Origin: a virus
Virus record (IMG/VR): IMGVR_UViG_3300047668_000642
Span: 1 to 36,372 of that record
Direction: 5' to 3' (one strand)
Length of the DNA stretch: 36,372 nt
Shown here: positions 4,390 to 32,885 of the stretch, in pieces
Numbering within the stretch: the first letter of the stretch is position 1
How the letters are laid out: each line of letters starts with the position of its first letter
Position numbers and translations under genes: made by a program
The notes under the pieces: model-generated
Seen by the model: only the letters and a program-made list of their open reading frames with translations
Database searches by the model: none
What the model was told of the DNA's origin: nothing

Positions 4390-4403
4390 GATGCCCTCCT
4401 CTT

Positions 4404-15709: not shown

Positions 15710-16355
15710 GCAGCCTCGTAATCGACAGAGTTGACGCTGGAATTGCTGGGACTGGCGACGCTGCGGCGGTGTAATTTAAAAATCCGTTGGTGCTGTCAAA
15801 CATATAGTTGACCTCAAGATAGTCGCCCGCAGCCACGGTAAAGATTTGGGTGCGAGACGTAAGAACTGTGGCGTTATTTCTGTGCAGGGCCGTTGCCAGC
15901 GCACTGTCTGGGACGTCTGTCCCGTTTATGCTGGGCCAAAAGTAAAAATGAACTGTCGCGGTAGACGTTGACGACATTTGCGCCGAAAACGCCAGAACAT
16001 ATTCGCCCGCCTCCTCGAATACAATGCGAGAGGCAGGCGTCCCCTGCGTAATGCCGGAGTTGCCTACCGGGGCGTCATAAGTTATTTTGTACGCAGTATT
16101 GGCGACTGCGGCGGTAACGTCGGCAGTCTTGATGAAGTTGGCGTGGCCATCCTCCAAGACGATCTGACGCCACGCGCCATTTTTGGAGACGACGGGATAC
16201 CCGTTTACATTATCCCACAAAATGACGCCGGGTTGAGAGGCCGACGAATATGTCTCCTTAAAGCCAAGCTGATCCAGCGCCAGCCCAAGGTAGCGACGCA
16301 TATTCTCGGCCCACTGGCTTATGTCCATAGTAATGGGTGGCAGCATCCGGCTCAT
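15702..16355 (-). CDS. Virion protein with C1q/TNF-like jelly-roll domain
   Basis: A 217-residue protein. The N-terminal 35 residues are helical (MDISQWAENMRRYLGLALDQL). The bulk (about 75-215) is beta-rich with the rhythm of a C1q/TNF-like jelly roll: IVFEEAGEYVLAFSAQM, then VHFYFWPSINGTDVP, then QIFTVAAGDYLEVNYMFD. Such domains trimerise and are used in phage tails and virion surfaces for receptor or glycan contact. The start at 16355 is fixed by an ATGA overlap with the tail-hub gene; there is no separate ribosome binding site. The fold is inferred from pattern. Confidence 0.65.
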   Translation of the reverse strand: MSRMLPPITMDISQWAENMRRYLGLALDQLGFKETYSSASQPGVILWDNVNGYPVVSKNGAWRQIVLEDGHANFIKTADVTAAVANTAYKITYDAPVGNSGITQGTPASRIVFEEAGEYVLAFSAQMSSTSTATVHFYFWPSINGTDVPDSALATALHRNNATVLTSRTQIFTVAAGDYLEVNYMFDSTNGFLNYTAAASPVPAIPASTLSITRLHG

Positions 16356-17830: not shown

Positions 17831-17846
17831 GTGCCTTCTCCCTATA

Positions 17847-18308
17847 TTAAGCGGGTTTCGTGGGCCAGTCGGCATCGTCTAGATTTGGAAAGTTTGCGTG
17901 GCTGGTGACATCGCGCAGCGCCTGACGATACGTTGTCATAGCCGCGTCCATAGTTACATCCGTTAATGCAAAGTAATCTGTTGCAGCCAGCAAGCCATCA
18001 CGCTTACTGCGATTAGACGAAGCAACTCCATCGTCCCACGCTTGTGTCTCTTCAGCGGTCTTGCTTGATGTAGTCCATCCAAGGGTCCACGCACCGTCCA
18101 CCAATGAAGGCGCGGCGTCTTGCGCTACATTCTGAGTGCGCTCATTAATGCTTGGCATATCCGCAAACGTCACTGGCATAAGGCTATAACTCTCAAGCAT
18201 CTCGTCAGGGATTTGCTTGGGGAATGATGTGTTGGGATTATCACGGCGTAGTTTTCCTACGGAATAGGGGTATGTGTCTACGGCTCCGCTTGTAATTTTA
18301 ACGTGCAT
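17847..18308 (-). CDS. Tail fibre assembly chaperone-like protein
   Basis: A 153-residue protein. The C-terminal third carries the pattern of the Phage_tail_APC family: KRDGLLAATDYFALTDVTMD, then TYRQALRDV, and finally DWPTKPA. The N-terminal half looks beta-rich. Family members help fold or attach tail fibres and are usually encoded next to the fibre gene, as here, immediately after the propeller-like tail protein. The ATG has TAGGAGAT five bases upstream. Confidence 0.7.
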   Translation of the reverse strand: MHVKITSGAVDTYPYSVGKLRRDNPNTSFPKQIPDEMLESYSLMPVTFADMPSINERTQNVAQDAAPSLVDGAWTLGWTTSSKTAEETQAWDDGVASSNRSKRDGLLAATDYFALTDVTMDAAMTTYRQALRDVTSHANFPNLDDADWPTKPA

Positions 18309-18318
18309 TTAAGATCTC

Positions 18319-19698
18319 CTATAGATCGGTGAGTGTATTAGTGCTGGATACTGTATTACCACTGCCGCTTAGTGTGACGTTGGATGTAGACCCGGTGCTT
18401 AAAGAACCGCCAATATCAGAGAAAGTCAGGTAGCCTGTTGGTTCATTGTAAGATGGAATGGTAACTGTGTAACCCCCATATGTGCCAGCGGCTACACCAT
18501 CTAACGGGATCTTGAACATAATGATATTATTGTTTGAGGCGCTTGCTGTAAACCCACCCGCATAAACAAAACCGTCTGACCCAACAGTAAGCGCATCTAA
18601 TATACTTTCATAAGATGTCTTGCCAATTCGCATTGCCCACTGGAGTGTACCAGACGAGTTATACTTTATAACTACATCTTGACTATTTCCTCCGCCGTGA
18701 TTTGCAGTGACGTAAACATTTCCATCACCGTCTACTGCAATGGCCCTGCCCCCCGACTGCTGTAGTGTGGAGCCGACCTTATTTACATAAAACTTTTCCC
18801 ATACGAGCGCACCAGTGGACTTTCTTATCTTCCTAGTGTGACAAGCGTTTTCCCCGTTACTTCCATTAAAGTCCTCTGCGTAGCCACAATCATACATAAA
18901 AGACGCGTCTGAAGTTATGCTTTGGCCTTCACCAAAACCAGTGTTAGTTGTTGAGCTAGTGGAGCGGTATACTGCTTCAAGGCTTCCGTTTTCGTCAATT
19001 TTTGCTAAATCAGCAGCGTAATGTCCTACGCTTCCATTTATACCAGTAGTCATACCAACTAGAAAATTTCCACCATAACCCGGTCTAAGGCTATTGGTTT
19101 CCCAATGAGCGTATCTTATAGAATTCTGCTGGTTCCAGTTTATTGAATAAGGCCACTGGCGTGTTCCACCCAAATTAAACTTTTGGACTTGGCCTGTTTG
19201 GCGTGACCCGTCATACCCATTAAAGGCGGTAAATATGCTTTGACCTGCGGGGTAATAATCTATGCTCATATCGCCGCCACGGCTGTTGGGTCCGTAATAC
19301 CCCGATGCAGACGTATATGGGTCACCATCGTCAGTTCTTGTAAACCAAGCCGCTTCACCTGATGCCTGACCATTGGAGTACCAATAACCTCCAAGCCAGA
19401 TGTCATTGTTAAGGTCTTCACAAAGAGTGCTGGCATAAATACCTGTAGAGCCAGAACCAGAGCCGTCAGCTATCTTGTAAAAACTAGAAACTGTGCCGTC
19501 TGCATTGAACTTAATGGTTATTATATCAGCGGCATCTGAGCCTCCCGTAGCAACAAAACTACCGTCAGATTTTTCAATCACCGCTTTTAAGTAAGATGTA
19601 CCAACATTAGGCGAGGTGGGAACCATTTCTAAAGCCCAACCCTTATCACCGCCAGCACCGCCAGCCGCAAAATTAGTTAATCTACTGATATTGCTCAT
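18319..19698 (-). CDS. Beta-propeller tail protein, probable receptor-binding
   Basis: A 459-residue Gly/Ser/Thr-rich protein made of repeated propeller blades. Examples are GGRAIAVDGDGNVYVTANHG with DVVIKYNSSGTLQW, and ALTVGSDGFVYAGG with NIIMFKIPLDG, which look like SBBP-type repeats. The last 50 residues are a Ser/Thr-rich strand region. It lies among fibre genes and next to an assembly chaperone, so a receptor-contacting role is likely. The gene is visibly AT-richer than its neighbours (about 46 % GC in sampled lines), as expected for an exchanged host-range module. Only a weak ribosome binding site precedes the ATG. Confidence 0.7.
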   Translation of the reverse strand: MSNISRLTNFAAGGAGGDKGWALEMVPTSPNVGTSYLKAVIEKSDGSFVATGGSDAADIITIKFNADGTVSSFYKIADGSGSGSTGIYASTLCEDLNNDIWLGGYWYSNGQASGEAAWFTRTDDGDPYTSASGYYGPNSRGGDMSIDYYPAGQSIFTAFNGYDGSRQTGQVQKFNLGGTRQWPYSINWNQQNSIRYAHWETNSLRPGYGGNFLVGMTTGINGSVGHYAADLAKIDENGSLEAVYRSTSSTTNTGFGEGQSITSDASFMYDCGYAEDFNGSNGENACHTRKIRKSTGALVWEKFYVNKVGSTLQQSGGRAIAVDGDGNVYVTANHGGGNSQDVVIKYNSSGTLQWAMRIGKTSYESILDALTVGSDGFVYAGGFTASASNNNIIMFKIPLDGVAAGTYGGYTVTIPSYNEPTGYLTFSDIGGSLSTGSTSNVTLSGSGNTVSSTNTLTDL

Positions 19699-19703
19699 AG
19701 CAG

Positions 19704-20480
19704 TTACCCCGCCGCATCAATGGCAAGCGCACCGTACCAAATAGTCCCGCCGTCTGTCGTTGTGAAGACAAGCAGATCGGTTTCGCCAGAAGCGGGCGCA
19801 TCAGGCGCAGTAGCGCCAGCCCAATCAACGCCAGATGGATATGTGATTGTGTGTGTGCCACCCGCCGTCAGGCGAAGCATAAAGCCAAAGGCCGTTCCGC
19901 TGGCTGGTGGGTTGGTGAATGTAAAGGTTGTGGCCCCACTAGTAGTTAGAGAGAACACGTTGCCTGTTTCACAGTTAACCGCTGGGGTGGTGCCAGAGAG
20001 TGCAACATACCGCTCGTTATAGCTGTCAACGGTAAGCTCGCCAGTGATGTCCACGTCTCCAGTGTATGACGACAGGTCAACGCTGGTTAGTTTTCCGTCA
20101 AGCTGCGTCTGGATTGCAGATGTAACACCGTCAACATATCCAAGCTCCGTGGCTGTCAATGTGCCGGGAATGCCGTCCAATACGTTCAACTCTGCCGCTG
20201 TGGACGTAACTCCGTCTAAGATGTTCAACTCAGCCGTGGTGGACGTAACCCCGTCTAAAATGTTTAATTCTGCCGCTGTGGACGTAACTCCGTCTAGGAT
20301 ATTTAACTCAGCCGTGGTGACAGTGGCCCCGTCTAGGATCGCAATCTCAGTGGCGCTTACAGCCCCAAGGAGCGTATCCGTCTCGGTCCAGTTATCATTT
20401 AGTTTTGTGCCCCAGGTGTCCTCGCTCGCGCCGACTTCTGGTAGGGTAAACCCTTGGTTTGGTGTAGTGCCATCAGCCAT
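19704..20480 (-). CDS. Tail fibre protein with 13-residue repeats
   Basis: A 258-residue fibre protein. The N-terminus (TTPNQGFTLPEVGASEDTWGTKLNDN) is the common virion-attachment start of marine phage fibres. Residues about 45-100 are tandem repeats of TAAELNILDGVTS, a widespread triple-stranded shaft motif. The C-terminal half is beta-rich (GTHTITYPSGVDWAG). It probably trimerises on the tail hub. Start and previous stop overlap as TAATG. The repeats are encoded by four 39-base units at 20185-20340. Confidence 0.8.
   Translation of the reverse strand: MADGTTPNQGFTLPEVGASEDTWGTKLNDNWTETDTLLGAVSATEIAILDGATVTTAELNILDGVTSTAAELNILDGVTSTTAELNILDGVTSTAAELNVLDGIPGTLTATELGYVDGVTSAIQTQLDGKLTSVDLSSYTGDVDITGELTVDSYNERYVALSGTTPAVNCETGNVFSLTTSGATTFTFTNPPASGTAFGFMLRLTAGGTHTITYPSGVDWAGATAPDAPASGETDLLVFTTTDGGTIWYGALAIDAAG
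20185..20340 (-). repeat. Four 39-bp tandem repeats in fibre gene
   Basis: Units start at 20185, 20224, 20263 and 20302, each encoding 13 residues. Units 1 and 3 share GCCGCTGTGGAC while units 2 and 4 share GCCGTGGTG, which indicates duplication of a 78-base pair of units. The encoded repeat is a known fibre-shaft motif, so copy number could vary by slippage or recombination. Confidence 0.9.
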
Positions 20481-21112
20481 TACGCGGCCCTCTCTAAGTA
20501 ATCTGCCTCTGTCCAGCTTGTCGTCGGACTAGACGCCTCAAGCCACTTGTATCGCGCGAACACGGTCGCTGTAAAGCCAAACTGATCCGACGCCTCCATC
20601 AATCTTACGCGATTATACACTATATCAGTGGTTATTGAAATGGTCGCGCTTACAGCTCCGACCGTGTCAATAACTGCGTTCGATGTCGCCACGATAGAAA
20701 TGGTGGGAGACGCCGAAACATTTCGCGTGACTTGCGCCGTCGCGGTGGCGCTGACAGCTATAGTAGTTGAAGCGCTGCCCTCTTCGATGCTGTAGTTTTC
20801 GCCGTATATAAACGTGCCGTAAGTGTTTATACCGTAGCCGGGACGGAAGCCTGGGATCACTTCATACTTAATGGAGGATACCGACGCGATGCCGCCTAGA
20901 CTTATGTTTGCCGCCGCATCCGCAACTCTAACGGCAGTCGGAGGCGTTGCCACAACTCCGATAGACGCAGGCGCTGAAGCCACAACAACAGTAACCGCAG
21001 CCGCAGTAGCGGAAACGGCAATAGACGCAGCGGCCGCGCCCTGCGTCGTCTCCGGCTCTCCGTACAGCCCAGAGTTAAAAACCCCAGAGCCATATGTTGA
21101 GCGTAAAGCCAT
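20480..21112 (-). CDS. Ala/Val/Thr-rich virion protein of unknown role
   Basis: A 210-residue protein dominated by repeated strand-like stretches such as ASIAVSATAAAVTVVV, TTIAVSATATAQVT and SATISITTDIVYN. Between them lies an aromatic Gly/Tyr segment (GFRPGYGINTYGTFIYGENY), and the C-terminus is SWTEADYLERAA. The pattern of beta repeats suggests a fibrous or sandwich tail component. It sits between the capsid/adaptor genes and the fibre gene. Overlaps at both ends are TAATG. No family was recognised. Confidence 0.65.
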   Translation of the reverse strand: MALRSTYGSGVFNSGLYGEPETTQGAAAASIAVSATAAAVTVVVASAPASIGVVATPPTAVRVADAAANISLGGIASVSSIKYEVIPGFRPGYGINTYGTFIYGENYSIEEGSASTTIAVSATATAQVTRNVSASPTISIVATSNAVIDTVGAVSATISITTDIVYNRVRLMEASDQFGFTATVFARYKWLEASSPTTSWTEADYLERAA

Positions 21113-21498
21113 TAGCTGGCCGTGATGTCTAGGTCGCCCGTTGGGATACGGAACACGTCGCCGGCGTTAATCGCCTTGGCCGTCGTAAGCGCAGAGTGAA
21201 TAATCATGTTGCCGCTAGTGGCCGCGTCCATGACGCCGATCCATCCGATCGTGCCCCAGTTGCCGCCGGAGGCCGCAGGAAACTCAACGCCGGCAGTGTT
21301 GGATGCAACGTCGGCAGTGACGCTGAAAGTCACAGCGGTTCTGGCGTATGCAAAGCCGGACACTTCAGTGCCGGCGGTGCCGGTGTCGGTGGGGTCAGAT
21401 GTAAACAGGCCGATGTACCAAGTCGTCGGACGCGTTACAGTAGTTGTCGTAAGCAAGTATTCGAGCGTGTGCGTCTCGAATGGATTAGTCAGTGACAT
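21112..21498 (-). CDS. Conserved short virion protein (Gp80-like pattern)
   Basis: A 128-residue protein with features of a widespread phage family: WYIGLFTSDPTD, then GTEVSGFAYARTAVTF, then WGTIGWIGVMDAATSGN and a final GDVFRIPTGDLDIT. The role is unknown; proteins of this type are encoded among head-tail and tail genes and may form a structural sandwich domain. AGGAG lies six bases before the ATG. A 49-base gap separates it from the adaptor gene upstream, which may hold a weak promoter or processing site. Confidence 0.65.
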   Translation of the reverse strand: MSLTNPFETHTLEYLLTTTTVTRPTTWYIGLFTSDPTDTGTAGTEVSGFAYARTAVTFSVTADVASNTAGVEFPAASGGNWGTIGWIGVMDAATSGNMIIHSALTTAKAINAGDVFRIPTGDLDITAS

Positions 21499-21547
21499 GG
21501 ATTTCTCCTGTTAGATATATCTGGCGCGATCATACACCAATGTGGTT

Positions 21548-22168
21548 TTAATAGCCAGAGGCGCGCATCCGTAGACCAGACCGCGCGAAACGGGTCTCGT
21601 CAGACGACCTCTGAAGTGATTGTATTGCGTTTGAGTATAGCGAGGCCCACACCGATGTCCTGTTGTCATCGTTTAGGTACGGGGCGGACTGAACCAGCGC
21701 GCCGTATAGGTAGGCGTCGGGGGCGTCCTGGAGGAGCCAGTTAAATGTGTTTGTGCCGCTCAGCTCCGGCGTCTTTCCGTAATACATAAGCTGCATTGTA
21801 TATTCGGCGTCCGGCGTCGGGAATACCTCGAGCTCGTTTCCGGCGTTTGCGTAGAAGCGCGGGCGACCGCTTATGTTACTTGCGGCGGCGCGCAGCTGCA
21901 CCAAGTCGTCGATTGACGTGGGCTCAATTCGGAACGTGGTTCCCGATGTAATGCTGAAACGCAAAGTCTCCAGCCAGTCCTCCGGCGTCTGTATGTAACG
22001 ACTGTCGAGTGTGGCATCTGAACGCTGCACCATCTTGTAGTGTCGCAAGTCTCGATTGATGCTGCTCTCTGCCAGCGTGATAAAGTCAGGAATGACTGCG
22101 GTCAGATCGTCACGGTTAAGCCAGGTCGCGATTGATGCCTTTAGCTCGTCATACGTTGTAATCGCCAT
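21548..22168 (-). CDS. Head-tail adaptor (gp16-like)
   Basis: A 206-residue protein resembling phage head-to-tail adaptors that ring the portal. The N-terminal helical part reads YDELKASIATWLNRDDLTAVIPDFITLAE, typical of this group, and is followed by a beta region (FYANAGNELEVFPTPDAEYTMQLMYYGK) and helices (WLLQDAPDAYLYGALVQSAPYL). Position after the capsid gene and a short connector gene fits. Start and previous stop overlap as TAATG. Confidence is good because the N-terminal and YYGKTPEL-like motifs recur in these adaptors. Confidence 0.8.
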   Translation of the reverse strand: MAITTYDELKASIATWLNRDDLTAVIPDFITLAESSINRDLRHYKMVQRSDATLDSRYIQTPEDWLETLRFSITSGTTFRIEPTSIDDLVQLRAAASNISGRPRFYANAGNELEVFPTPDAEYTMQLMYYGKTPELSGTNTFNWLLQDAPDAYLYGALVQSAPYLNDDNRTSVWASLYSNAIQSLQRSSDETRFARSGLRMRASGY

Positions 22169-22467
22169 TAAAGTGTACCTTCTCGGGTGCGAAACGCTCG
22201 GTTCTCCGGTTGGTTAAGCCACTTCTTGAGGGCTTTCGGATCGTCTGCGATGCCTTGCTTCTTTAGCTCATAATACACGGAAAGCGGGATGGAAGCCACC
22301 TTTGGCTGGTCGCCGAATTTTCCCGACACTTCGTTGAACGAGCGCTTGTTAGCCTCAATGATTTTTGTGGTGTCCTGCACCGTCTCGACGACGTACTCGC
22401 CGTTTCCCATGACGTGCCAAAATTTGGTAATCCCGGTGGCCTCGTCTCGGCTAAAAAGTCTCTTCAT
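22168..22467 (-). CDS. Small conserved protein downstream of capsid gene
   Basis: A 99-residue protein of a type often found directly after the major capsid gene in podoviruses. It begins MKRLFSRDEATGITKFWHV, has a short strand region and ends with a helical, basic stretch (DPKALKKWLNQPENRAF). Its role is unknown; completion of heads or connector assembly is possible. The start at 22467 is preceded by GGAGGG; a longer frame would run through the hairpin at 22488-22507. It overlaps the adaptor start as TAATG. Confidence 0.7.
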   Translation of the reverse strand: MKRLFSRDEATGITKFWHVMGNGEYVVETVQDTTKIIEANKRSFNEVSGKFGDQPKVASIPLSVYYELKKQGIADDPKALKKWLNQPENRAFRTREGTL

Positions 22468-22487
22468 TTTTCCCTCCAAAGGTGAAT

Positions 22488-22507
22488 GGGGCGGCCGAAG
22501 CCGCCCC
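22488..22507 (-). terminator. Hairpin with UUCG loop behind the capsid gene
   Basis: On the minus strand GGGGCGGC-TTCG-GCCGCCCC forms a perfect eight-base-pair stem seven bases after the capsid stop and before the next ribosome binding site. It probably lowers readthrough or protects the capsid mRNA 3' end, so capsid is made in excess over downstream genes. Confidence 0.7.
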
Positions 22508-22513
22508 ACCGTA

Positions 22514-23476
22514 TTAGGCTGCGGCTATGGTCAAGTCAGCGATCAAGCCGTGAGCCGCCTCATTCGACATTTTGACGCCGGTCTCGCAGATTAACATTTT
22601 TTTGTCGGCGTCACCGGTCTTGGCAAGATCCACGGCCTGTATAGGTCGCAGTGTCGCGACTGATGCGTATTCAGGGTCGAGGCACCATGCGTCACGCTCG
22701 CGGCTAAAACGGTTCGGGACAACAGTCAGGCTACCAAAATCTGACATATAAATATCAGCAGCACCGATGATGGTGGTGGGGCCATCTGATGGCGCTTGGA
22801 AGCGCTGGGCAGCAATGCCAGTGAAGGTTGATACGACTGTCTTGTTGTATGGGCCAACCATCAGGATTGATGGGTTGCCGCCGGCAGTGTATGCCTTCTG
22901 CATCACGTTTTTGAGCATAGTCTCCGTAAAGATACGCGCCGTGCCGTCGTTACGAGCGTCTGTTCCGTCAACTGCGGTGGGGTTTGTACCGTCAGAAGCC
23001 TTGTCGACGTTGGTTGAGATCCACGCTCCCAAGCCGGCAGTTACGCGGCCGGCTGATGTCGAGCCACCAGAACGAGCTGTGTTGCCGGTGTATATTGACT
23101 CTAAATCGCGCCGCACTTCGCGGCCACGCTTGGCCAATTGGTATGCGACTTCGTCGTTGCGGCCGGCTAAATCTTGGAAGCCGAGGTTGTCCGCTATGAT
23201 CATGGTCCGGCGACGAATTTGTGTATAGTTGCCGATGCGCACTGTGGGGTTGGTGACGTCAAACGAGGCAACGTCGTCGCCGTCGATGACTGGCGTGACG
23301 TCTACGTCTGACAGGCTGTCTGTCTGCCATTCAAAGAATGTGTTGGACACGTTTTCTGCGCCGACGTTAGAAGTGAACGGCACCTCATCAGGTGCTATGT
23401 TTGAAATTACGTTAGAAAGTGACTCTCTGATGCCCTTGGCTGAGAAAGACGTGAAGGTGTTGGCAATGATGGTCAT
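22514..23476 (-). CDS. Major capsid protein (DUF5309/SU10-like family)
   Basis: A 320-residue protein, the shell subunit. It opens with the pattern of DUF5309-type phage capsid proteins: SFSAKGIRESLSNVISNIAPDEVPFTSNVG, followed by FFEWQTDSL and the helical spine YTQIRRRTMIIADNLGFQDLAGR. A P-domain-like region and KKMLICETGVKMSNEAAHGLIADLTIAAA follow at the end. Length and position next to a scaffold fit an HK97-fold protein. TAGGAG lies nine bases before the ATG, and a UUCG hairpin follows the stop. Confidence 0.85.
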   Translation of the reverse strand: MTIIANTFTSFSAKGIRESLSNVISNIAPDEVPFTSNVGAENVSNTFFEWQTDSLSDVDVTPVIDGDDVASFDVTNPTVRIGNYTQIRRRTMIIADNLGFQDLAGRNDEVAYQLAKRGREVRRDLESIYTGNTARSGGSTSAGRVTAGLGAWISTNVDKASDGTNPTAVDGTDARNDGTARIFTETMLKNVMQKAYTAGGNPSILMVGPYNKTVVSTFTGIAAQRFQAPSDGPTTIIGAADIYMSDFGSLTVVPNRFSRERDAWCLDPEYASVATLRPIQAVDLAKTGDADKKMLICETGVKMSNEAAHGLIADLTIAAA

Positions 23477-23488
23477 AGTAGTATGCTC

Positions 23489-24508
23489 CTATAGCATTAA
23501 TGCTTTGATTGCGGCTGCGGCATCGTTGACGCTGCCAGTTTTACGTGCGCGGTTTTGCGCTTCCTGTACTGAAGAGACACGTTTAGGCTGTGACTGGCGT
23601 GAACCCGACTTCAATGTCTTGGTGCGCGATTTCATAGGTTTAGCTTTAACCTCGTTGGCGCGCGTTTCTCCACGATCATATAACATCGCCTTCCTCGCTA
23701 ATTTCACAAGCGTTGCATTCGACATTCCGCTGACGTCTTGCTCGGTAAACCCCTCGTTAAGCAGGAAGTCCCGTATCTGGGTTGCTTCCTTGGCGGCGAC
23801 TTTGTTGTCACGCCACTCAGGGATAATATCAGGCAAGACATGGCGTTGCTGCTCCAGGTAGCTTTGCTGCATTTCTTGCTGCTTGTTCTGCGCAATTTGC
23901 TGCATCCGCTGCTGTTCAGCTTGGACGGCTTGCAGTTGACCCACGCGGGCCTCTTGCTGTTTCCGCCACTGACGTTCTGCCTTCGCTGCCATTACGGGGT
24001 CTGCATCATACAGAGTATCCCAATCCGGCTCCTGTTCTGCTGTCTGTTTAATGCGCTCCGCCATCGCTGGCAGTAGTTGCGCATATTCAGCACGTTCACG
24101 CTGCATCTCCTGGAACTCATGTTCTTGAGCCTTACGGCCCTCGGCGAGTTCTTGAGTTTTTCGCGTGTAGTCCTTCTGCCGAAGAAACCCGCTGCGCAGC
24201 TCTTCAATGGTTTTCTCCTCACCGTCGACCTCTATGGTCGTGGATAAATCGAGGGTTCCATATCCGTCGCCGTCATCGTCTTCATCGTCGTCCAGATCGC
24301 TCTCAGACCCCTCAACGGCAGAGTTATCAGCTTGCGCCTCATACCCGTCCTCTTGGTCGTCCAGCATTTCGGCGTCCTCCGCTTGCGCGGCGTTGGCCTC
24401 AAGCGCATCTTCGGTCGCTACGTTATCCTCTTGGGGCGTAAGCATACTTCTGATTGCATTCTGAGCGCTGTACAGGTCAGTCCCTTGCGGGGTGCTGTTA
24501 TCTGACAT
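23489..24508 (-). CDS. Capsid scaffolding protein
   Basis: A 339-residue scaffold that would guide procapsid assembly and then leave. Residues 25-100 are extremely acidic (SDLDDDEDDDGDGYG), residues 100-240 are long Gln/Glu-rich helices likely to form coiled coils, and residues 270-325 are basic (KAKPMKSRTKTLKSGSRQ). The C-terminal helix is where scaffolds bind coat protein. It directly precedes the capsid gene. AGAGGAATAAG precedes the ATG. Confidence 0.85.
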   Translation of the reverse strand: MSDNSTPQGTDLYSAQNAIRSMLTPQEDNVATEDALEANAAQAEDAEMLDDQEDGYEAQADNSAVEGSESDLDDDEDDDGDGYGTLDLSTTIEVDGEEKTIEELRSGFLRQKDYTRKTQELAEGRKAQEHEFQEMQRERAEYAQLLPAMAERIKQTAEQEPDWDTLYDADPVMAAKAERQWRKQQEARVGQLQAVQAEQQRMQQIAQNKQQEMQQSYLEQQRHVLPDIIPEWRDNKVAAKEATQIRDFLLNEGFTEQDVSGMSNATLVKLARKAMLYDRGETRANEVKAKPMKSRTKTLKSGSRQSQPKRVSSVQEAQNRARKTGSVNDAAAAIKALML

Positions 24509-24527
24509 CTCTTATTCCTCTATTATG

Positions 24528-24773
24528 CTACTTTTGTCTCTTAATTTCAATAGTAGCGTTATCAACCATCCCACGGAGAGACTGGCGAACCAGGTCAACT
24601 CCCCGAAGCCTCATGTAAACAGCCTCCCGGCCGTCGGTGTCGCTGGTGCCAGTTGCCTTGAACTGCGACCAGCAATCCGCCTCGATCTCCTCAAGAAACC
24701 GAAGCAAATCTGTGTCAGCGAGCAGGCGCTCCGCCTGCTTGCCGTCAGTGATGATTTGCTGCTTAGTCTTCAC
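24528..24773 (-). CDS. Small protein between portal and scaffold, GTG start
   Basis: An 81-residue helical charged protein of unknown role. It starts at GTG 24773 with GGAGG six bases upstream and overlaps the portal stop by 11 bases. Small proteins at this location are frequent in podoviruses and may be head assembly factors. No domain recognised. Confidence 0.65.
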   Translation of the reverse strand: MKTKQQIITDGKQAERLLADTDLLRFLEEIEADCWSQFKATGTSDTDGREAVYMRLRGVDLVRQSLRGMVDNATIEIKRQK

Positions 24774-26889
24774 GCGCGGCCTCCGTAATTATGTCTGCCT
24801 GTGCCTTCATCACTTCGCGATTGATCGCCATGTCCGCCCTGATCTGTGCGACGTCAAGTTGCGTGCCATATTTTGCCTTCAGCTCCTCGGCCTTGATGCG
24901 GATCTCAGCCTCCAGCTCGTCGCGCTTGCGATCGTCTTCCATGACCATCCTCTGGCGCCCGAGCTCGAGCTCTGCGGCCTTCTTCTGCATGTCCGCCTGT
25001 ATAGACTGAATTTGGACTTGCACGAGCTGCTCTTCGATCGTCGGCTCTTTTGGCGGCGGCGGCGGCGGCTGGAATTTCGCCGGGTCGCTCCAGAACTGCG
25101 AGGTGTCCTTGAAACCGGCCAGAGACGTCATCTCCTTCAGCGTGTTGCTCAGCTTGGAGATGTCGGTCAGCGGGTTCTGTGGGCCCATTGTCGACATTGC
25201 CTCCTTCTGCATTTCGCCGATTTGGCGCAGCATCATCATCCGCTCGGTGTCAGATCCACGCCCAAGCGCCACGTTGATTGAGACGTCCATATTCGCGTTC
25301 CAGACCCGTGGGTCCATTTCCACGAAATCGTTGTTCAAGCGAACCATGCGCGCCTTATCTTGGTGCGTGGTGATGTTGTACAATACAAGCTCGTACAAGC
25401 GCTTTATGCCCGTCTCAGCGAATACACGAGCTATCATCTCAATGTGCTGCTGTGCGGAGCTTACCGTGGCTGCCACGGCCGTTGCAGTGCTTGACTGAAG
25501 TGCGCCGGCGTCGAGGCCCATGGACGCCTTGGAGATGCCCGTGCGGGCCTCCTTGACTTCGTCCATGTACTGCAAGACCGGAAACGCCTGCTGGCCCACG
25601 AATGGCACGGTGAGCTGCTGGATGCTGCCTGGCGCCCGCTGGCGGACGATCGAGCCCATTTCTGTGTTCATGGCGTCGTCCATGTTCACCATCCCCTCGA
25701 CAACAGAAATTCTTGGGTGAATACTGAGACTTAGGCTGTCCAGAGAGTTGCGCATCACGACGGACTTGATCCGCTGGATGTCCATCACGGTGTCGGCGAC
25801 GCTCATTCCGAAGAAATCGTGCGGCTCTGGATCTGGGCACATAGTGGCGAACGGCGCCATCGCGCAGGGTTCGTTGTTTAGGATCTTGTTGCCGTCTCCG
25901 CCGGTGCAGATCTTGCGCAGCTCGGCGATGCCGTCGCCGTCGTAGTCGACGCGGATGTAGTTCTCAACGTACAGAACCTTGCGCATCGCGGGGTCGCTGC
26001 GGGAGTTCATGTCGCTGGACAGAGCCGGGTTGCGCGTGTTGCGCTCGACGTTGGTGTCCATGTCGTCGTTGGATGACGACAGCTTATAGACCTCGTCGTA
26101 GTCGTAGCCCATCGCCACCAGCTCGGACACGGTCACAATGCGGCGGTGCGCGCAGTAGTCGGCGTCCTCCACGGACTTTGCGTCACGCGAAATCAAAAAC
26201 TCCTCCGGCGGGAGGGCCTCCAGCTTCACGCGGCCGTCGGGGCGGGTGTAGGTGACGCGCAGATCGTGGACCATGGGAGGCATGATGAACTGGCCAGTCA
26301 TGGGGTCGATCTGAGGCTCGCCGACTGGCGTGCTCGCGTCGATGTCGATTTCCGCGTCGGGATCGGCCATCAGGGCCGACAGGGCGTTGTCGTCGACGCC
26401 GGTGTATTCGATCGTCTCGAAGTCGGTCTTGTCTTCCCAGTAGCACTTGAGAATGCCGACCTTGCGGACCAGCGCGTCCATGAATGCGCTGTGCATCTCC
26501 AGGAAGCCGCGATTGTCGCGGTTGATGATGTAATTCGCGTACTCCGTGGCCTGCTTGGCCGCCGGCACGTCTTCAGCGTTCTGTGGGACGTATTCGACCG
26601 TGCGATCAGATCCGTGGAACATTCGCATCAGAGACGGGATGATAGCTTGTACAGTATCCCGTACGTCCATGCTGACCACCTGGCTGCGGCCCTGCTCCTC
26701 GTCGCCAAACGGCTCGCCGCGATAGTATTGCGTTGCCGTGGCGCGGATCGGGGAGACCCAGTTGTCAATGAAGTCGATCGCGTCGTCGATTTGGCCTCCG
26801 ACAATGCCCTGCAACTCCGTGTCGTCCATGACGTCTGGGTTCAGTTCAGCCTCAAGCTCGGAGGCCATTTCGTTCAGTTCATAGTCCAT
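24763..26889 (-). CDS. Portal protein
   Basis: A 708-residue portal forming the dodecameric DNA channel and packaging motor base. Recognisable segments are WVSPIRATATQYYRGEPFG, VSMDVRDTVQAIIPSLMRMF, EYANYIINRDNRGFLEMHS (stem region) and DALVRKVGILKCYWED. There is a long C-terminal helical barrel-like region rich in Glu/Lys (KAAELELGRQRMVMEDDRKR). Length matches the large P22-type portals. The start at 26889 is used because AGAAGGG precedes it; an in-frame ATG at 26937 would place the start inside the promoter-like gap. The stop overlaps the next gene. Confidence 0.88.
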   Translation of the reverse strand: MDYELNEMASELEAELNPDVMDDTELQGIVGGQIDDAIDFIDNWVSPIRATATQYYRGEPFGDEEQGRSQVVSMDVRDTVQAIIPSLMRMFHGSDRTVEYVPQNAEDVPAAKQATEYANYIINRDNRGFLEMHSAFMDALVRKVGILKCYWEDKTDFETIEYTGVDDNALSALMADPDAEIDIDASTPVGEPQIDPMTGQFIMPPMVHDLRVTYTRPDGRVKLEALPPEEFLISRDAKSVEDADYCAHRRIVTVSELVAMGYDYDEVYKLSSSNDDMDTNVERNTRNPALSSDMNSRSDPAMRKVLYVENYIRVDYDGDGIAELRKICTGGDGNKILNNEPCAMAPFATMCPDPEPHDFFGMSVADTVMDIQRIKSVVMRNSLDSLSLSIHPRISVVEGMVNMDDAMNTEMGSIVRQRAPGSIQQLTVPFVGQQAFPVLQYMDEVKEARTGISKASMGLDAGALQSSTATAVAATVSSAQQHIEMIARVFAETGIKRLYELVLYNITTHQDKARMVRLNNDFVEMDPRVWNANMDVSINVALGRGSDTERMMMLRQIGEMQKEAMSTMGPQNPLTDISKLSNTLKEMTSLAGFKDTSQFWSDPAKFQPPPPPPKEPTIEEQLVQVQIQSIQADMQKKAAELELGRQRMVMEDDRKRDELEAEIRIKAEELKAKYGTQLDVAQIRADMAINREVMKAQADIITEAARED

Positions 26890-26969
26890 CTTGTGGCCCT
26901 TCTTGCAACGCGGTTGCGGTTGTGTTAACAACTTCATCTGTATTATGCACTAAAATGGAGGGTGTGCAC
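26890..26969. promoter_or_regulatory. Divergent promoter region, portal versus small gene
   Basis: This 80-base gap drives the portal leftward and a 46-residue gene rightward. It holds GTTAAC at 26924-26929, the hexamer seen upstream of other phage units, and TATTAT at 26941-26946 as a possible -10 for the rightward gene. No full CtrA box is present. Confidence 0.4.
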
Positions 26970-27110
26970 ATGGAAAGCGAATTAGAAGCCATACGCCGCA
27001 GCGTTGAGGCTGTTGTTATGATGCTATGGAAAAGCCAAGAGGATCTTCCAGACGAAATTGTCGAGATGATTGACGAAGTGGTAAATGAAGTTAAAGACAT
27101 CATCACTTAG
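26970..27110 (+). CDS. Tiny acidic helical protein
   Basis: A 46-residue protein that is almost entirely helix-forming and acidic (ESELEAIRRSVEAVVMMLW, then DLPDEIVEMIDEVVNEVKDI). GGAGGG lies six bases before the ATG at 26970. It is the only rightward gene in this stretch and its 3' end overlaps the convergent gene by eight bases. No family recognised; size and independence suggest an accessory or inhibitory peptide. Confidence 0.6.
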   Translation: MESELEAIRRSVEAVVMMLWKSQEDLPDEIVEMIDEVVNEVKDIIT

Positions 27111-28794
27111 CCATATACGATTGCAGTAAGCCCATTACATACCTATCAGCGCCGGGTTTACCCTGTGAATTTAAAATCTCTTTATACAAACTAGCTTCGT
27201 CAACCCATTGGTCGTCGACTAGCTGGTTTATATTTGGGTTACCCATATATGACTTGACGTCTTTTGGCTTTGCCTTGAGATCTAATATGTTTTTTTCTCT
27301 GGCAAACGAAGCGGCCTTTGGGAGTGCGCTGTCTCGCGCGCCAATAAGCCACGGCAGATCAAAGCCAAGTGTTGAGCTTGTCGTTCCAGGCTCCATTGCG
27401 AGTTCTGCATTATATGATGGGTGAAGGTCTGTTCTTTCAGAAACAGCTCCGCGCCTTGGAGTTCCAAACCTATAGCCGACACTTGCAGTGTCTGACAGCA
27501 TAAGCTCAGGCTGCGTGATCGCAAAACGAGCTGGCCCAACTTCCGGCACACCGAGTTTTTGCATTTGGCTGCTGTCAAAGAATTTTATCAAAGACGCACG
27601 GACACCGCCCTTTTGGCCAGACAACCATTCTGGAAACGCTGGAGAGCTAAAACTAGGCCGATCTTTAATCTTTGGAAATTTTTTGGCAATTGCTTCATCA
27701 ATTTTTCCGACGTTACGGGTCCAGCGAGCCGAATTTGCTCCAGTGGAAATCATGCCCCCATATACGTCAGACATATGCTTCGAAAAGTCGCCAGACCTTT
27801 CGCCCATGGGCATATAGGCAGCGATGTAATCTTCGCCGCGTTTATTAGCCTCAATCCATGCGTTTGACTTTGCCTTCATTGGGTTTGCCTCTGATGCCCA
27901 AACGCCTCGGTCAACTTGGTCCATATATCTTGGGCCGCCGTATGTTTGTTGGCCGCCGTTTCTCAATAAATAATCGTTGACCTCTTGGACAAGGTCTTGG
28001 TTTGTCGTGCGATCTCCGGTGGCGAAATACATTCTTTTATTCTTGAAGTCAGAGGGGTCAAGCATTGTTGCGTCTAGCAGCCCACCCTGCCGCTCACCAG
28101 TAGCGGTCCATAAAGCAGGCGGAGTAGCGGCTTTAATGCCGGAAAATGGTGTATAAAGTGCGGGGTCTTTTCCCTTCCCACCAGCCCGAGCCTGTGCAAA
28201 AAAATCGGAGCCTTTTACTTCAAATCTGTCGCCTGCGCGCGCCGCGCTGAGATCTCTACCTTCCCCGCCACGCTGGAACGCCTCGAGAATACCTTGGGCA
28301 TCGCCTTCGATAATAGACTTGCCACCGTACGTTAAGTCGGCTGCGAGGCCGTCGTAGTCCACGTCTGCGGCAGCCCTTGCAACGGTTTTGGCGCCTTTAG
28401 CCGCAGGGCCAAGGCCAGGCGCCACCACCGCAAACAGTGACGCCATGTCGGCGTAGCGGGCGTCGTTAACAGCTTTAAGCTGTTCTGGGCTCGCCTGATC
28501 TGGGGTGATGCCGTACATATCCATCAGATACTCGGCGGCGTTTTTGTTTAGCGCGTTGCTCGCGGTGGTCGTAAAATCTTCGTACATGCCTCGAGCGGTG
28601 CCGACTGGGTCTGCGACCGCGCTCTGGATGCCGCCCACCATGCTGTCGCCGATGGCCTGATTAACTGCCAGCGGATCCTGCCGGATAGAATTAATTAAGC
28701 CGGCTCCGCCCTCTGCGACTACCCTGGCCATGCCGAATAAGTCTTTAAGCGGGCCGCGTAGGCCCGGCACGATGTATTGCTCGATGCCTGCCAT
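27103..28794 (-). CDS. Large virion-associated protein of unknown function
   Basis: A 563-residue protein. Residues 1-150 include helical, Ala/Gly-rich stretches (MASLFAVVAPGLGPAAKGAK) like internal virion proteins. The central part has aromatic motifs (TATGERQGGLLDATML, GGPRYMDQVDRGVWASE, DYIAAYMPMGERSGDF) and the end is helical. It follows a lytic transglycosylase and precedes the portal block, so it may be injected with DNA. The C-terminal half is AT-richer than the neighbouring structural genes. No enzyme motif could be assigned with confidence. The start overlaps the transglycosylase stop as TAATG. Confidence 0.65.
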   Translation of the reverse strand: MAGIEQYIVPGLRGPLKDLFGMARVVAEGGAGLINSIRQDPLAVNQAIGDSMVGGIQSAVADPVGTARGMYEDFTTTASNALNKNAAEYLMDMYGITPDQASPEQLKAVNDARYADMASLFAVVAPGLGPAAKGAKTVARAAADVDYDGLAADLTYGGKSIIEGDAQGILEAFQRGGEGRDLSAARAGDRFEVKGSDFFAQARAGGKGKDPALYTPFSGIKAATPPALWTATGERQGGLLDATMLDPSDFKNKRMYFATGDRTTNQDLVQEVNDYLLRNGGQQTYGGPRYMDQVDRGVWASEANPMKAKSNAWIEANKRGEDYIAAYMPMGERSGDFSKHMSDVYGGMISTGANSARWTRNVGKIDEAIAKKFPKIKDRPSFSSPAFPEWLSGQKGGVRASLIKFFDSSQMQKLGVPEVGPARFAITQPELMLSDTASVGYRFGTPRRGAVSERTDLHPSYNAELAMEPGTTSSTLGFDLPWLIGARDSALPKAASFAREKNILDLKAKPKDVKSYMGNPNINQLVDDQWVDEASLYKEILNSQGKPGADRYVMGLLQSYMAK

Positions 28795-29327
28795 TAGTTG
28801 AGTAGCCCCTTCGGTCGCATCTGTGGACGCGGGGACATGGTGACGGGGTAATTGTCTCCGGTGCTCTGATTGTAATACTGGCGGACGCTGTCGACGTATT
28901 TACGGTCGTCGTTGTGCGGTAAATTATCGTATTTACGGTCGCCCCTTTTTACCGCTCCAACGCCGGCAGTGTAGGCCGCGACGGCCTGATCCACGTTGCC
29001 ATCAAATTCTACCAGCAACGCCTCCATGTAGCGGCTGGCAAACTCTTTGTTAATCTCGGGCGTGTCGAGCAACTCGATGGCGGCCTCTTCAGTCTGGTCA
29101 AAAGTGCCAAACCCCATCTCTTTGGCCACGTCAAATATATTTTTCGCGCCGCTTTTCTCGTAGCCCGGCTTCATTGCGGTCGGTATCTTAACTTGCATGA
29201 CGCCGCGCGCGCCGGTGGGGCTGACGAGATCGTTCAAGTCGCGTGTCGGACCGTCGTGGACTGGGTCTCTGCTACTTTCCTGGCGTTGGATGGCGTCAAG
29301 TAATGACTTAAAATTAAGATCTGCCAT
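28794..29327 (-). CDS. Virion lytic transglycosylase (SLT domain)
   Basis: A 177-residue peptidoglycan lyase that would open a local hole in the cell wall during DNA entry. The SLT signature is clear: AIQRQESSRDP with catalytic E17, VSPTGARGVMQVKIPTA, AAYTAGVGAV and NDDRKYVDSVRQYYNQ. There is no signal peptide, and it sits among virion genes far from the lysis cassette, which argues for a virion-associated role rather than host lysis. Overlaps with both neighbours are TAATG. Confidence 0.85.
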   Translation of the reverse strand: MADLNFKSLLDAIQRQESSRDPVHDGPTRDLNDLVSPTGARGVMQVKIPTAMKPGYEKSGAKNIFDVAKEMGFGTFDQTEEAAIELLDTPEINKEFASRYMEALLVEFDGNVDQAVAAYTAGVGAVKRGDRKYDNLPHNDDRKYVDSVRQYYNQSTGDNYPVTMSPRPQMRPKGLLN

Positions 29328-30178
29328 TAAAATTTCCCTGCTTTGATGCGCTTTGCGGTATCGTACATGCGGCGCGAGAAGCCTGGGTTTGTCTTATCCC
29401 ATTGCTGTATGAGTTTGCTACTGCCCTCGGTGGACAGCCACTGCTGATACGCGGCCTCATCTGCCTCGGGGCTGCCGGCCATTACGGCTCCGTCTGCCGT
29501 CGGAAAGAAATCGGCGGGGGCGTCTATGGCCATGCCATCCATTCTGCGCGCAAACGGCGCGTCCACGTCCGTCGCCGGCATTGTCGGCATGTCGCGACCA
29601 GTGCCTTTATACAAATCGGCAAGCATAATATTGCTGTCAGGCTGTGACATTTCCATAAACGTGCCACTTGCGTCGTATGGGCTAAATTGCGTGCTCGGAG
29701 AGGCGGGTGCTGGCATCATATTTGGGCCGGCGGACATCTGGGTGCTCATAGCCGTAAGCGGCGCCGCTGCCTGCGTGGCTCCGCGCCGACGTGGGCTAAC
29801 CCGACGCTGGGCGTTGGACAGCAGCGGCTGCTCTGCCGGCGTGTTGCCGGATCCATTAAACAGGCGGGCCAGAAGGCCGATCATTCCCGGCATCTGTCCC
29901 ATCGAGTGGCTGAAGGTGCCGGGCGTGGGGATGTTATCTGGGCGGGGGCCCTGACGGAAGTCGCTGACCTGTGGGCCAGTAGACGTGTCTGAATAGTGTG
30001 GGGCGCTGCCATAGCTGCCGGTGTGCGTGCCGCCCGGCGTAAAGCCAATGTACTCGCGGTACTTGTCGGCGGCGTCGGATCCGTCGTTTCTCTCGATCGT
30101 CTTGGCGGTGCGGTCGTAGTAGTCGCGCGTCTTCTCTTCGAAGCCGAGACCCATCTTCAAGTCGTCAAGTATTCCCAT
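29327..30178 (-). CDS. Hypothetical virion-operon protein
   Basis: A 283-residue protein, first gene of the leftward structural block. The start at 30178 (MGILDDLKMGLGFEEK) has AGAGGG nine bases upstream; the longer frame to 30259 is unsupported. Much of it is low-complexity, rich in Pro, Met, Ser and Asp, with an internal basic patch (RRVSPRRRGA). The last 60 residues form a helical end (AAYQQWLSTEG, then DTAKRIKAG). It may be a minor virion or scaffold-like protein. No family recognised. Confidence 0.6.
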   Translation of the reverse strand: MGILDDLKMGLGFEEKTRDYYDRTAKTIERNDGSDAADKYREYIGFTPGGTHTGSYGSAPHYSDTSTGPQVSDFRQGPRPDNIPTPGTFSHSMGQMPGMIGLLARLFNGSGNTPAEQPLLSNAQRRVSPRRRGATQAAAPLTAMSTQMSAGPNMMPAPASPSTQFSPYDASGTFMEMSQPDSNIMLADLYKGTGRDMPTMPATDVDAPFARRMDGMAIDAPADFFPTADGAVMAGSPEADEAAYQQWLSTEGSSKLIQQWDKTNPGFSRRMYDTAKRIKAGKF

Positions 30179-30380
30179 TTCGCGCCCTCTGCGTTCATTT
30201 CTCCCAAGAATACACCAAAACCCGTTAAATGTAACCCCGCGCACTAGGGGGAGGCCCATTGCGCGGGGGAGCCTGGAGAGCTCAGCAGCCGGGTGGGAGG
30301 GAGCCGCTAACAGGGGCAGGATAACAAAAAAGTTTACCGGGTGCCAGTTTATTACGATTTAGGGGTTGTAGTCTGTAGGT
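30179..30380. other. Intergenic region between divergent blocks
   Basis: About 200 bases upstream of the structural block, with no credible coding frame. It contains purine-rich and G-rich stretches (GGGGGAGGCCC) followed by an AT-rich part with a TTGTAG that could act as -35. The leftward structural promoter should lie here but no convincing hexamer pair was found. Confidence 0.4.
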
Positions 30381-30433
30381 GTTAACATTAGGTTAACTGT
30401 ATAGAGAGACACACACAAAGGAATACGGACATG
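30381..30433 (+). promoter_or_regulatory. Duplicated leader/promoter with perfect CtrA box, copy 2
   Basis: TTAA-CATTAGG-TTAAC (30382-30397) is an exact match to the CtrA consensus TTAA-N7-TTAAC. It is followed by TATAGA (30400-30405) as a -10 and by AGAGAGACAC and AAAGGAATACGGAC before the ATG. The element aligns to 10122-10069 with three substitutions and one gap. The spacing of box and -10 is that of a CtrA-activated promoter. Confidence 0.7.
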
Positions 30434-30811
30434 GACCAAGACAATATCAAAGAGCTTAAAGAGCAAATTGGTTTCGCGTTTGATTATGTTGAGTTTTCAG
30501 CGCTTGCCGAAGCCAGCTTAAAAACTAACGATTATGACTTATGTAATGAATATAGCGACAGAGAATTTGCTGCTTGGAACTTAGTTGCAAATCAAACGAA
30601 TGAAGCGGAGGCAATGCTAAAGAAAATTGAAGCTGATTTTGGCGATTATGTAGCAAGTGTTATTGCTGACAATGCTGGGGTCACTTGGTTTGATATTGGC
30701 GGCAAAGATTTTGACCTAGACGATTTAAGCGGAACAATTAGAGAAGCGCACTATCATAGTATGATTTTGAACTCATACGATCTCGCCGCAGAAATTGCAG
30801 AGGATAAGTAA
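30431..30811 (+). CDS. Highly acidic small protein, accessory
   Basis: A 126-residue protein of unknown function with about 28 Asp/Glu against about 9 Lys/Arg, giving a strongly negative charge. It contains clusters such as DIGGKDFDLDDLSG. No cysteine motif, signal or membrane segment. The gene is much AT-richer (about 35-40 % GC in sampled lines) than its neighbours, which suggests recent acquisition. It has its own CtrA-box promoter and is followed by a GC hairpin. Strongly acidic small phage proteins are often DNA mimics that block host nucleases, but here this is only a hypothesis. Confidence 0.7.
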   Translation: MDQDNIKELKEQIGFAFDYVEFSALAEASLKTNDYDLCNEYSDREFAAWNLVANQTNEAEAMLKKIEADFGDYVASVIADNAGVTWFDIGGKDFDLDDLSGTIREAHYHSMILNSYDLAAEIAEDK

Positions 30812-30824
30812 AGCATAACCAAAC

Positions 30825-30840
30825 GGGGGCTGCGGCCCCC
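30825..30840 (+). terminator. Hairpin after acidic protein gene
   Basis: GGGGGC-TGCG-GCCCCC forms a six-base-pair, all-GC stem 13 bases after the stop. It is followed by ACACAC rather than T residues. It likely ends or attenuates the short transcript. Confidence 0.6.
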
Positions 30841-30860
30841 ACACACAAGGGAGAGACAAC

Positions 30861-31151
30861 ATGCACACCAAACTAGAAACCACGCAGGAGGCCGTAGAGC
30901 TGGCCCTGTACCTTGCAATCACCGCAGACTGCAACGAGCTGTCAGCAAAGGCGCTTAGCCAAGCTAAAGACTTTGCCCGAGACATCACCCCGGCGGAGAT
31001 GATCGAAGCCAAGGCAAACGTGCAAAAGCAGGTCGAGGGCGAACGCTTGACGCAGGAGTTTATGGACAAAACTCTCGCGCAACTAGACGTGGACCCCTAC
31101 TACCGTCAGGCCGTGGCCGACGCGTGGGAAGCGTATAATATTAACCACTAA
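30861..31151 (+). CDS. Small helical hypothetical protein
   Basis: A 96-residue helical protein of unknown function (EAVELALYLAITADCNELSAKAL, EMIEAKANVQKQVEGERLTQEF). AAGGGAGAG precedes the ATG. It follows the acidic gene across a hairpin and ends in a four-base overlap with the convergent terminase stop. No domain recognised. Confidence 0.65.
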   Translation: MHTKLETTQEAVELALYLAITADCNELSAKALSQAKDFARDITPAEMIEAKANVQKQVEGERLTQEFMDKTLAQLDVDPYYRQAVADAWEAYNINH

Positions 31152-32569
31152 ACTACCCCACGAATACCACGCCGGAGCGGTTTATTCCACGCTCCGGTGG
31201 CCGCGCTGCCAAACGCCATAGTCGTGTGGTCATTGGCCAATGCCAAGCACAGAGCATCAGCGCGGTCCGGCGAGCGGATGCCGCGCTTTTTCATGCTCTC
31301 CTTGCTCTCCACCTGGATCTTGCCCGACGACGTAAACATATATCGAGGCCCCGCCAGCTCCGCATACAGAGCGTCGTCCTTCGGAAGTGACACGTCCATC
31401 CCCTCCAGCCACGACTTCGCCTTAAACCACAGCTCCGCGCGCAAGTTGAGATACGTCTGCTTCGCCACCGCGCGCTCCGACACGTTCAATCCCCGCGCCG
31501 GCAGGCCCAGCTCACGCAGGCGGTCCAACACGCCAGCCCCGAAGCCATTACTGTCGATGATGATCTCCGCCGGCTTACGCGACATGGGCATGTTGTCATA
31601 TTCCGCCTTCACCGCGCCAGACAGCTGCATCAGGTCCAAGTTACGCCACACAGTCATAGGATGGATCATTGGACCCTGGCGCTTGCACAGCACGCTGCTG
31701 TCGCCGCCCTGACGCGCCACGTCCAGGCCCCACACGGCCGGCGTGTCCTCGTGGACCTTCACGACGTTATTAAACGCGTGCTCAATCAACGACACCGGGA
31801 TTACCGTGTCCTCCTCGCTCGGCGGAAAATTTCCAAGCACGCGGACGTGATACGCCGGGCTGTCCTCGCCGTAGCGCTTCTTCATGTCCTCAACGAAATC
31901 CTCGGCCACGCGCGGACTGTCAACGCACGAGACGTGCATCGTGTGCCAGTCCTCCCGTAATCGCGTGTGGGTCTCGTAAAAGAAGCCAGTATTACGCGTG
32001 GGGTTTCCCGTCAGCACCGTCGTGGCGTGGACGCCCGACATCGAGCCCGAGGCAGCCTCAAACACGGCCTCCGGCACGCCGCTGGCTTCATCCGCCAACA
32101 GTAACACATGCTCGCTGTGGACGCCGGCCAAAGCCTCCGGCTGCTCCGCTCGAGACGTCCGACACGAAATAAACGTGCTCTCGGGCGCGCTCTTTAACTC
32201 AATCCGATCAGACTTGACGTCCAGCAAAGTATTAAACGGAGGCTTGAGGCGCTTGGCCACGGACTTCATCTCCGCGAAGCACGCGTCAAAGAGCTGCGCG
32301 GACGTGGGCGCCGTCACCACCGTCTTGCTCGGGTAGCGCATCAGCACATGCCAGATGGCCGCCATGGCCACGCCCGTAGACTTGCCGACGCCGTGGCCAG
32401 ACCTAACGGAGATCCGCCTAATCGCGGGGGCGGCGACCGCGTCCAACAACTCCACTTGCCACTCGTCCGGCTCGATGCCAATGACCTCGCGGGCAAAGCA
32501 TACCGGGTCGTCGCGGTAGCGCCGCATCAGTTTGACAAACGGGTTCTCGGGTTGCTTGGGGACGTTCAT
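31148..32569 (-). CDS. terL: Terminase large subunit
   Basis: A 473-residue packaging motor that translocates DNA through the portal and cuts concatemers. The ATPase shows Walker A SGHGVGKST (57-65), Walker B LLLADEA (D160, E161) and a coupling segment TTVLTGNPTR. The RNase H-like nuclease follows, with GLDVARQGGDS (D283, D290), EIIIDSNG (D339) and SPDRADALCLAL (D435, D438). The ATG has AGGAG nine bases upstream, with a GTTAAC hexamer between Shine-Dalgarno and start. The stop overlaps the convergent small gene. It is separated from the small subunit by a 316-base non-coding gap. Confidence 0.93.
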   Translation of the reverse strand: MNVPKQPENPFVKLMRRYRDDPVCFAREVIGIEPDEWQVELLDAVAAPAIRRISVRSGHGVGKSTGVAMAAIWHVLMRYPSKTVVTAPTSAQLFDACFAEMKSVAKRLKPPFNTLLDVKSDRIELKSAPESTFISCRTSRAEQPEALAGVHSEHVLLLADEASGVPEAVFEAASGSMSGVHATTVLTGNPTRNTGFFYETHTRLREDWHTMHVSCVDSPRVAEDFVEDMKKRYGEDSPAYHVRVLGNFPPSEEDTVIPVSLIEHAFNNVVKVHEDTPAVWGLDVARQGGDSSVLCKRQGPMIHPMTVWRNLDLMQLSGAVKAEYDNMPMSRKPAEIIIDSNGFGAGVLDRLRELGLPARGLNVSERAVAKQTYLNLRAELWFKAKSWLEGMDVSLPKDDALYAELAGPRYMFTSSGKIQVESKESMKKRGIRSPDRADALCLALANDHTTMAFGSAATGAWNKPLRRGIRGVV

Positions 32570-32885
32570 TTGTTAACACTCCTGTGCGTGGTGGTGTGAA
32601 ATTTTTTTCGGCGTGGGTGCGTGATTAGGTCATCAGCATTTGCACCGGCAAAATATTTGAGAGGGGGGGGTCAAAACGCGGATTTCTGTGGCGAGAAGGG
32701 CAGGGGAGAGCGGAAAAACACGGCCGGATCGACGCCGAACCGCATCCGCAATTAGAGTGATAATGGATATTATGTTAAATCTTTTCGCATCGATGCGACG
32801 TTCGCCCATGCAGGCTTGACCGCGATCGCATTCGATGGCACGCGCACACGCGTGCGCCTCACCGCCTCGATGCGTGATTTCGCGC
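32570..32885 (-). other. Palindrome-rich gap between terminase subunits, possible pac/cos/ori
   Basis: No credible gene fills these 316 bases; a 92-residue basic frame here has no ribosome binding site. Notable are GTTAAC at 32572, a run of eight G, an AT-rich patch, a perfect 14-base palindrome TCGCATCGATGCGA (32785-32798) and GCGCAC-ACGC-GTGCGC. A cis-acting site near the small-terminase gene, where pac or cos sites usually lie, is plausible. Confidence 0.5.

Follow-up and report, generated by a model that had tools for sequence, protein, structure and literature searches.

A 'CtrA box' in the promoters of uncultivated podovirus-like phages is probably the operator of a phage-encoded Arc-like repressor

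Arc, encoded by Salmonella phage P22 and a member of the MetJ/Arc superfamily of ribbon-helix-helix (RHH) proteins, acts as dimers on half-sites spaced by roughly one helical turn (11 bp) in the promoter Pant, between the -35 and the -10. Aca proteins, which carry an HTH, are autoregulated repressors of phage accessory promoters and are encoded beside their targets. Phage promoters can also be controlled by a regulator of the host: for three phages, EMSA binding of CtrA and effects on reporters have been documented, and lytic deferment has been proposed (Mascolo et al. 2022; PMC9437464). The sites of these published phages are clustered in a gap or in a terminal repeat (PMC9437464). CtrA control of phage promoters is, then, of an already known kind.

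Here, we describe a promoter site of an uncultivated phage that matches the CtrA consensus exactly and that is probably read by a repressor of the phage itself. Mechanistically, the nearest parallel is P22 Arc: the protein proposed here is likewise phage-encoded and about 55 aa long, with an RHH fold assigned by profile and by structural model. In contrast to the P22 system, the half-sites in the window come close to perfect palindromes (TGTTAACA), the sites are present at at least three promoters (the repressor's own included), and the downstream genes are small, swappable, and family-less and do not encode an antirepressor. Other small viral or plasmid RHH regulators, e.g. SvtR (PDB 2KEL, protein 56B of an archaeal rudivirus), ORF E73, and the CopG-type repressors, are comparable in kind but belong to different hosts.

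The window (the whole stretch of DNA that was analysed) has 36,372 bp, is an entire IMG/VR virus record, and derives from a group of uncultivated podovirus-like phages. It encodes structural and lysis proteins (portal, scaffold, major head protein, terminase subunits, DNA ejection protein, holin, and endolysin) and proteins of replication and recombination (RuvC-like resolvase, exonuclease VIII-like protein, and primase/helicase). The nearest named phages—uncultivated Manatee Spring phages and Sinorhizobium phage phiM5—are distant (43–50% identity for the portal, 51–57% for TerL), and IMG/VR holds many close relatives. No DNA match to the stretch 15000–32600 was found in the phage database, and Rfam and tRNA scans gave no match. 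To look for the host, the portal alignment was used in a prophage search of 84,980 genomes; the only hits were six stray MAG contigs from mixed taxa, and no host emerged. Within the early region, a gene for a 192-aa protein (2119–2697, minus strand), with neither a PHROG nor a Pfam match, is 69–89% identical in 20/20 relatives and conserved above most early genes.

The site in question, which we designate candidate operator O1 (30381–30397, plus strand), is GTTAACATTAGGTTAAC, i.e. two palindromic GTTAAC half-sites that flank the spacer ATTAG and lie 11 bp apart. It is a genuine, strongly conserved control site in a phage promoter. A preliminary description of this DNA had reported an exact CtrA consensus at 30382–30397, and both position and match are correct: TTAACATTAGGTTAAC occupies these positions, nested in GTTAACATTAGGTTAAC, and because the latter is palindromic, TTAA-N7-TTAAC is matched on both strands. 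Equally accurate were the accounts of TATAGA (30400–30405, plus strand), which begins two bases past the box, of the ATG at 30431, 34 nt past it, and of an AT-rich acidic gene behind it. This first gene of the O1 unit (30431–30811, plus strand; 39% GC) encodes a 126-aa protein with a pI of 4.05 and of no known family; the second (30861–31151, plus strand) encodes a 96-aa protein, also of no known family, with homologues in 7/20 relatives. The candidate -35 is TTGTAG (30366–30371, plus strand), with its TTG beginning 15 nt ahead of the box. The -10 is ambiguous: one candidate, suggested by spacing, is TAGGTT (30389–30394, plus strand), which falls within the operator, 17 nt downstream of TTGTAG, and reads TATGTT or TAAGTT, equally spaced, in relatives, and the alternative is TATAGA, which is conserved in relatives too.

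Searching IMG/VR for exact copies of the 17-mer yielded 59 stretches; the majority come from this phage group and carry the box in this same promoter, ahead of differing genes. Selection by the exact 17-mer was avoided by taking the best 80 TerL relatives and matching the box fuzzily. Most of those whose sequence extends across the promoter carry GTTAAC-N5-GTTAAC at the corresponding position; at the threshold used, no box was found in some of the more distant TerL relatives. The spacer varies among these TerL-linked relatives (ATTAG, ATTAT, ACTAT, TTAAT, TTAAC, AATTT, and others), and hence it is the half-sites and their 11-bp distance that are conserved, not the spacer. The idea that a conserved ATTAG marks a specific 17-mer was ruled out by the same variation; in the window's own clade, the sequence context suggests that the spacer is probably held in part by the overlapping -10.

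Twenty relatives contain about two to six boxes per genome, mainly at gene starts, and their consensus consists of two 8-bp palindromes, TGTTAACA, 11 bp apart, the half-site being extended by T before and A after in 34–43 of 62 non-redundant sites. Palindromic half-sites are what a dimeric RHH protein would be expected to read. Three half-sites in 11-bp register are present in G010, G011, and G012. A TTG precedes the box by 10 nt in 17/62 sites and by 15 nt in 10/62, and these preferred spacings, of which O1 has the latter, place the box between the -35 and the -10 or on the -10.

The genes behind the box promoters are anything but constant. At the position of 30431–30811, many relatives have unrelated small genes instead; some 60 clusters of small proteins unrelated to one another are encoded directly behind box promoters in relatives, and of ten such genes searched against Pfam, none (0/10) had a family, which together suggest that the operator marks swappable accessory genes. 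The interval 30431–31151 and its equivalents look like a hotspot of gene swapping downstream of a promoter that stays constant, possibly for anti-host or anti-defence genes.

The gene that covaries with the box lies at 4222–4389 on the minus strand and encodes a 55-aa protein (MSRELKQIGPRIRED...), the proposed repressor of O1 and of the two further operators (O2 and O3) described below. Several lines of evidence indicate that its product has the RHH fold. The protein matches PHROG 3180 ('Arc-like repressor') at E=0.0012, a modest match for a single protein, and Pfam RHH_3 is matched by 10/13 family members (best 9e-06), with the window's single sequence falling below the Pfam cut-off. A family profile matched only two PDB sequences, 2kel and 4aai, both viral RHH proteins, though over the helices only and weakly (E 0.08 and 1). 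The AlphaFold model has two helices (mean pLDDT 84) and an N-terminal strand of low confidence, unresolved in the monomer. The best Foldseek matches of this model in the PDB, namely ORF56, Arc, CopG, and CopASO, all have E > 1, owing to the shortness of the 55-aa chain and to its being modelled without a dimer partner. In sequence, the protein has very little similarity to P22 Arc itself, and a search of the phage database found no homologue of it.

In 18 aligned members, the strand LKQIGPR is invariant and the rest of the protein varies; one of the search patterns for members selected for LKQIGPR, and 13 members were found also by LKQ. A distant clade (G021/G023; 43–47% identity) has MKQLGSR instead, with K, Q, G, and R being kept, and by analogy with Arc the residues of this strand would contact DNA. 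The same clade keeps boxes, one of them just upstream of its diverged RHH gene.

A box (≤3/12 mismatches within 70 nt upstream) precedes the RHH gene in 42/42 distinct gene/upstream combinations, representing 31 proteins, as compared with 7.4% of 707 other ORFs taken as a control; a box before the protein's own gene fits autoregulation, which we predict. The RHH gene is present in the window and in 18/20 relatives. The two exceptions, G005 and G012, also lack the neighbouring RuvC gene and are therefore truncated at this locus, so that every relative spanning the locus has the RHH gene. Five outgroup phages, among them phiM5, which infects a CtrA host (Sinorhizobium), have neither such an RHH gene nor TTAA-N7-TTAA.

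In the window, GTTAAC-N5-GTTAAC with ≤2 mismatches occurs four times against 0.69 expected: three sites (4403, 10106, and 30381) are in promoters, and one (23745) falls within a coding region. For the CtrA core TTAA-N7-TTAA, three copies were counted where 0.20 are expected, a number never reached in 100 shuffles, but only the site at 30382 belongs to the conserved set; those at 5409 and 18298 have more than two mismatches to GTTAAC-N5-GTTAAC and were set aside. The candidate operator O2 (10106–10122, minus strand; GTTAACATTAGGGTAAC) has TTGCAA 15 nt upstream and a TATAGA-like sequence just downstream. It precedes a gene for a 133-aa protein of no known family (9670–10071, minus strand), which heads further minus-strand genes at 9392–9622, 8756–9280, 8317–8616, and 7399–8154, the last encoding an HTH protein; a DUF6378 family gene (8317–8616) thus sits in the region predicted to be controlled by O2. 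The candidate operator O3 (4403–4419, minus strand; GTTAACACTGCGTTAGA) is 13 nt ahead of the ATG of the RHH gene. As operators, O2 and O3 are imperfect, with one and two mismatches, respectively.

The conservation of the site, its placement in promoters, its linkage to the RHH gene, and the RHH assignment, all computed here, lead us to read O1 as the operator of the phage-encoded Arc-like repressor, with a probability of about 0.8. Binding, repression, and timing we infer as follows. One RHH dimer would occupy each palindromic TGTTAACA-like half-site, and two dimers 11 bp apart would line up along one face of the double helix, covering the region from the -35 (TTGTAG) to the -10 (TAGGTT or TATAGA) and, because of this coverage, blocking promoter opening. 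On entry of the phage, the O1 and O2 promoters would fire via the sigma-70-type RNA polymerase of the host before the repressor builds up. As the RHH protein accumulates, it would shut off O1, O2 (and with it a minus-strand, early-type operon), and, through O3, its own gene.

The alternative that the preliminary description had put forward is that phosphorylated CtrA of an alphaproteobacterial host times the gene behind O1 to the cell-cycle or motility state, in the manner of 'lytic deferment'. The proposal was a reasonable member of its class. TTAA-N7-TTAAC is exact on both strands, and EMSA and reporter assays have demonstrated CtrA control of phage promoters in vB_BsubS-Delta, phiCbK, and Cp1R7A-A1 (PMC9437464). 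The depletion of GANTC that it had pointed out is also real (3 observed in the window, 126 expected) and suggests a host with CcrM-type methylation, although as a sequence signal it is suggestive only. The window phage resembles the CtrA-regulated phages (PMC9437464) in two respects: phage promoters contain TTAA-N7-TTAA, and GANTC is probably methylated in the host. Symmetry does not separate CtrA (tandem) from a dimeric repressor, each half-site itself being palindromic.

Placement, conservation, and distribution of the boxes nevertheless speak against CtrA. In Caulobacter, promoters activated by CtrA carry the site at -35 (PMC11264516), which makes activation unlikely here: the box is not at -35 but directly before TATAGA, and it contains the other candidate -10. 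'CtrA-driven' expression, as originally envisaged, is therefore improbable. Overlap of the box with the -10 region favours repression, which CtrA, too, can exert from sites overlapping the -10 (PMC11264516), such that repression at O1 is possible for either protein. Among the 62 family sites, the CtrA core TTAA-N7-TTAA is intact in 29 and broken in 33. Mismatches fall on TTAA (eight positions) in 37/61 cases and on the outer G/C (four positions) in 24, i.e. at about equal rates, and thus the CtrA core enjoys no special protection, with the proviso that picking the sites at ≤2 mismatches limits what mismatch positions can show. The boxes covary with the RHH gene and not with a CtrA host, phiM5 having 0 GANTC and no box. 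Finally, unlike in the published CtrA phages (PMC9437464), the sites of the window phage are probably explained by a phage RHH protein and are single and dispersed (4403, 10106, and 30381), forming no dense cluster in a gap or terminal repeat. Two parts of the original interpretation stand, namely that the site is regulatory and lies in a phage promoter and that GANTC is strongly avoided, whereas CtrA as the reader is probably wrong; we consider control by CtrA unlikely.

A second alternative, which overlaps with the repressor reading, is dual use: the operator arose as a site for the phage repressor, and host CtrA binds the same half-sites in competition with it. The RHH consensus TGTTAACA-N3-TGTTAACA does contain the CtrA consensus, but relatives do not specially preserve the CtrA core and the prophage search yielded no host, and we regard dual use as improbable. 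Equally improbable is the broader notion of a shared 17-bp code, through which host CtrA would tune phage promoters and the RHH protein would occupy CtrA sites of the host as a mimic of the cell-cycle regulator. That another phage regulator binds the boxes—e.g. the 251-aa protein encoded at 7399–8154, with a predicted HTH (Pfam HTH_23)—is very improbable, since 12/20 relatives, box-rich clades among them (G007–G016 and others), yielded no homologue of this protein, and its start is not associated with any box.

With the Arc-like RHH protein as the reader of the boxes, an uncultivated, widespread group of aquatic phages gains a predicted regulator, operator code, and regulon. The proposed arrangement resembles the Aca-type repressors in that a small repressor would act on the promoter of fast-changing accessory genes and on itself. 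It differs from them in that the protein is of the RHH type and would act at distant loci. Because a perfect CtrA consensus can belong to a phage repressor, scans of phage genomes for CtrA motifs as signs of host cell-cycle control need to include a check for such a repressor. Marking, as it does, the promoters of dozens of unrelated, family-less small genes, the operator also offers a handle for the mining of phage accessory functions.

Exact copies of the 17-mer occur in unrelated contexts as well (L012, L030, and others). In the unrelated viral contigs L018, L021, L022, L032, L048, L060, and L063, the 17-mer lies within an 11-bp tandem repeat, TTAGGTTAACATTAGGTTAACA, and these copies might be true sites of a host regulator. 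No RHH gene was found in the five records searched among the unrelated 17-mer contigs (G024–G028).

The avoidance of GANTC extends to the relatives: most of G001–G020 have 0–7 copies and a few have 9–28, and in the window's clade GANTC is the lowest of 16 gapped palindromes. Sinorhizobium phage phiM5 lacks GANTC entirely against 197 expected, and MW202879 is hardly depleted (0.82). In a sister clade (G007–G013, G015, G016, and G020), where GANTC is likewise scarce, CCNGG is reduced to 0–0.01 of expectation, as compared with about 0.6 in the window's clade, a loss that looks like avoidance of a further methylase or restriction specificity.
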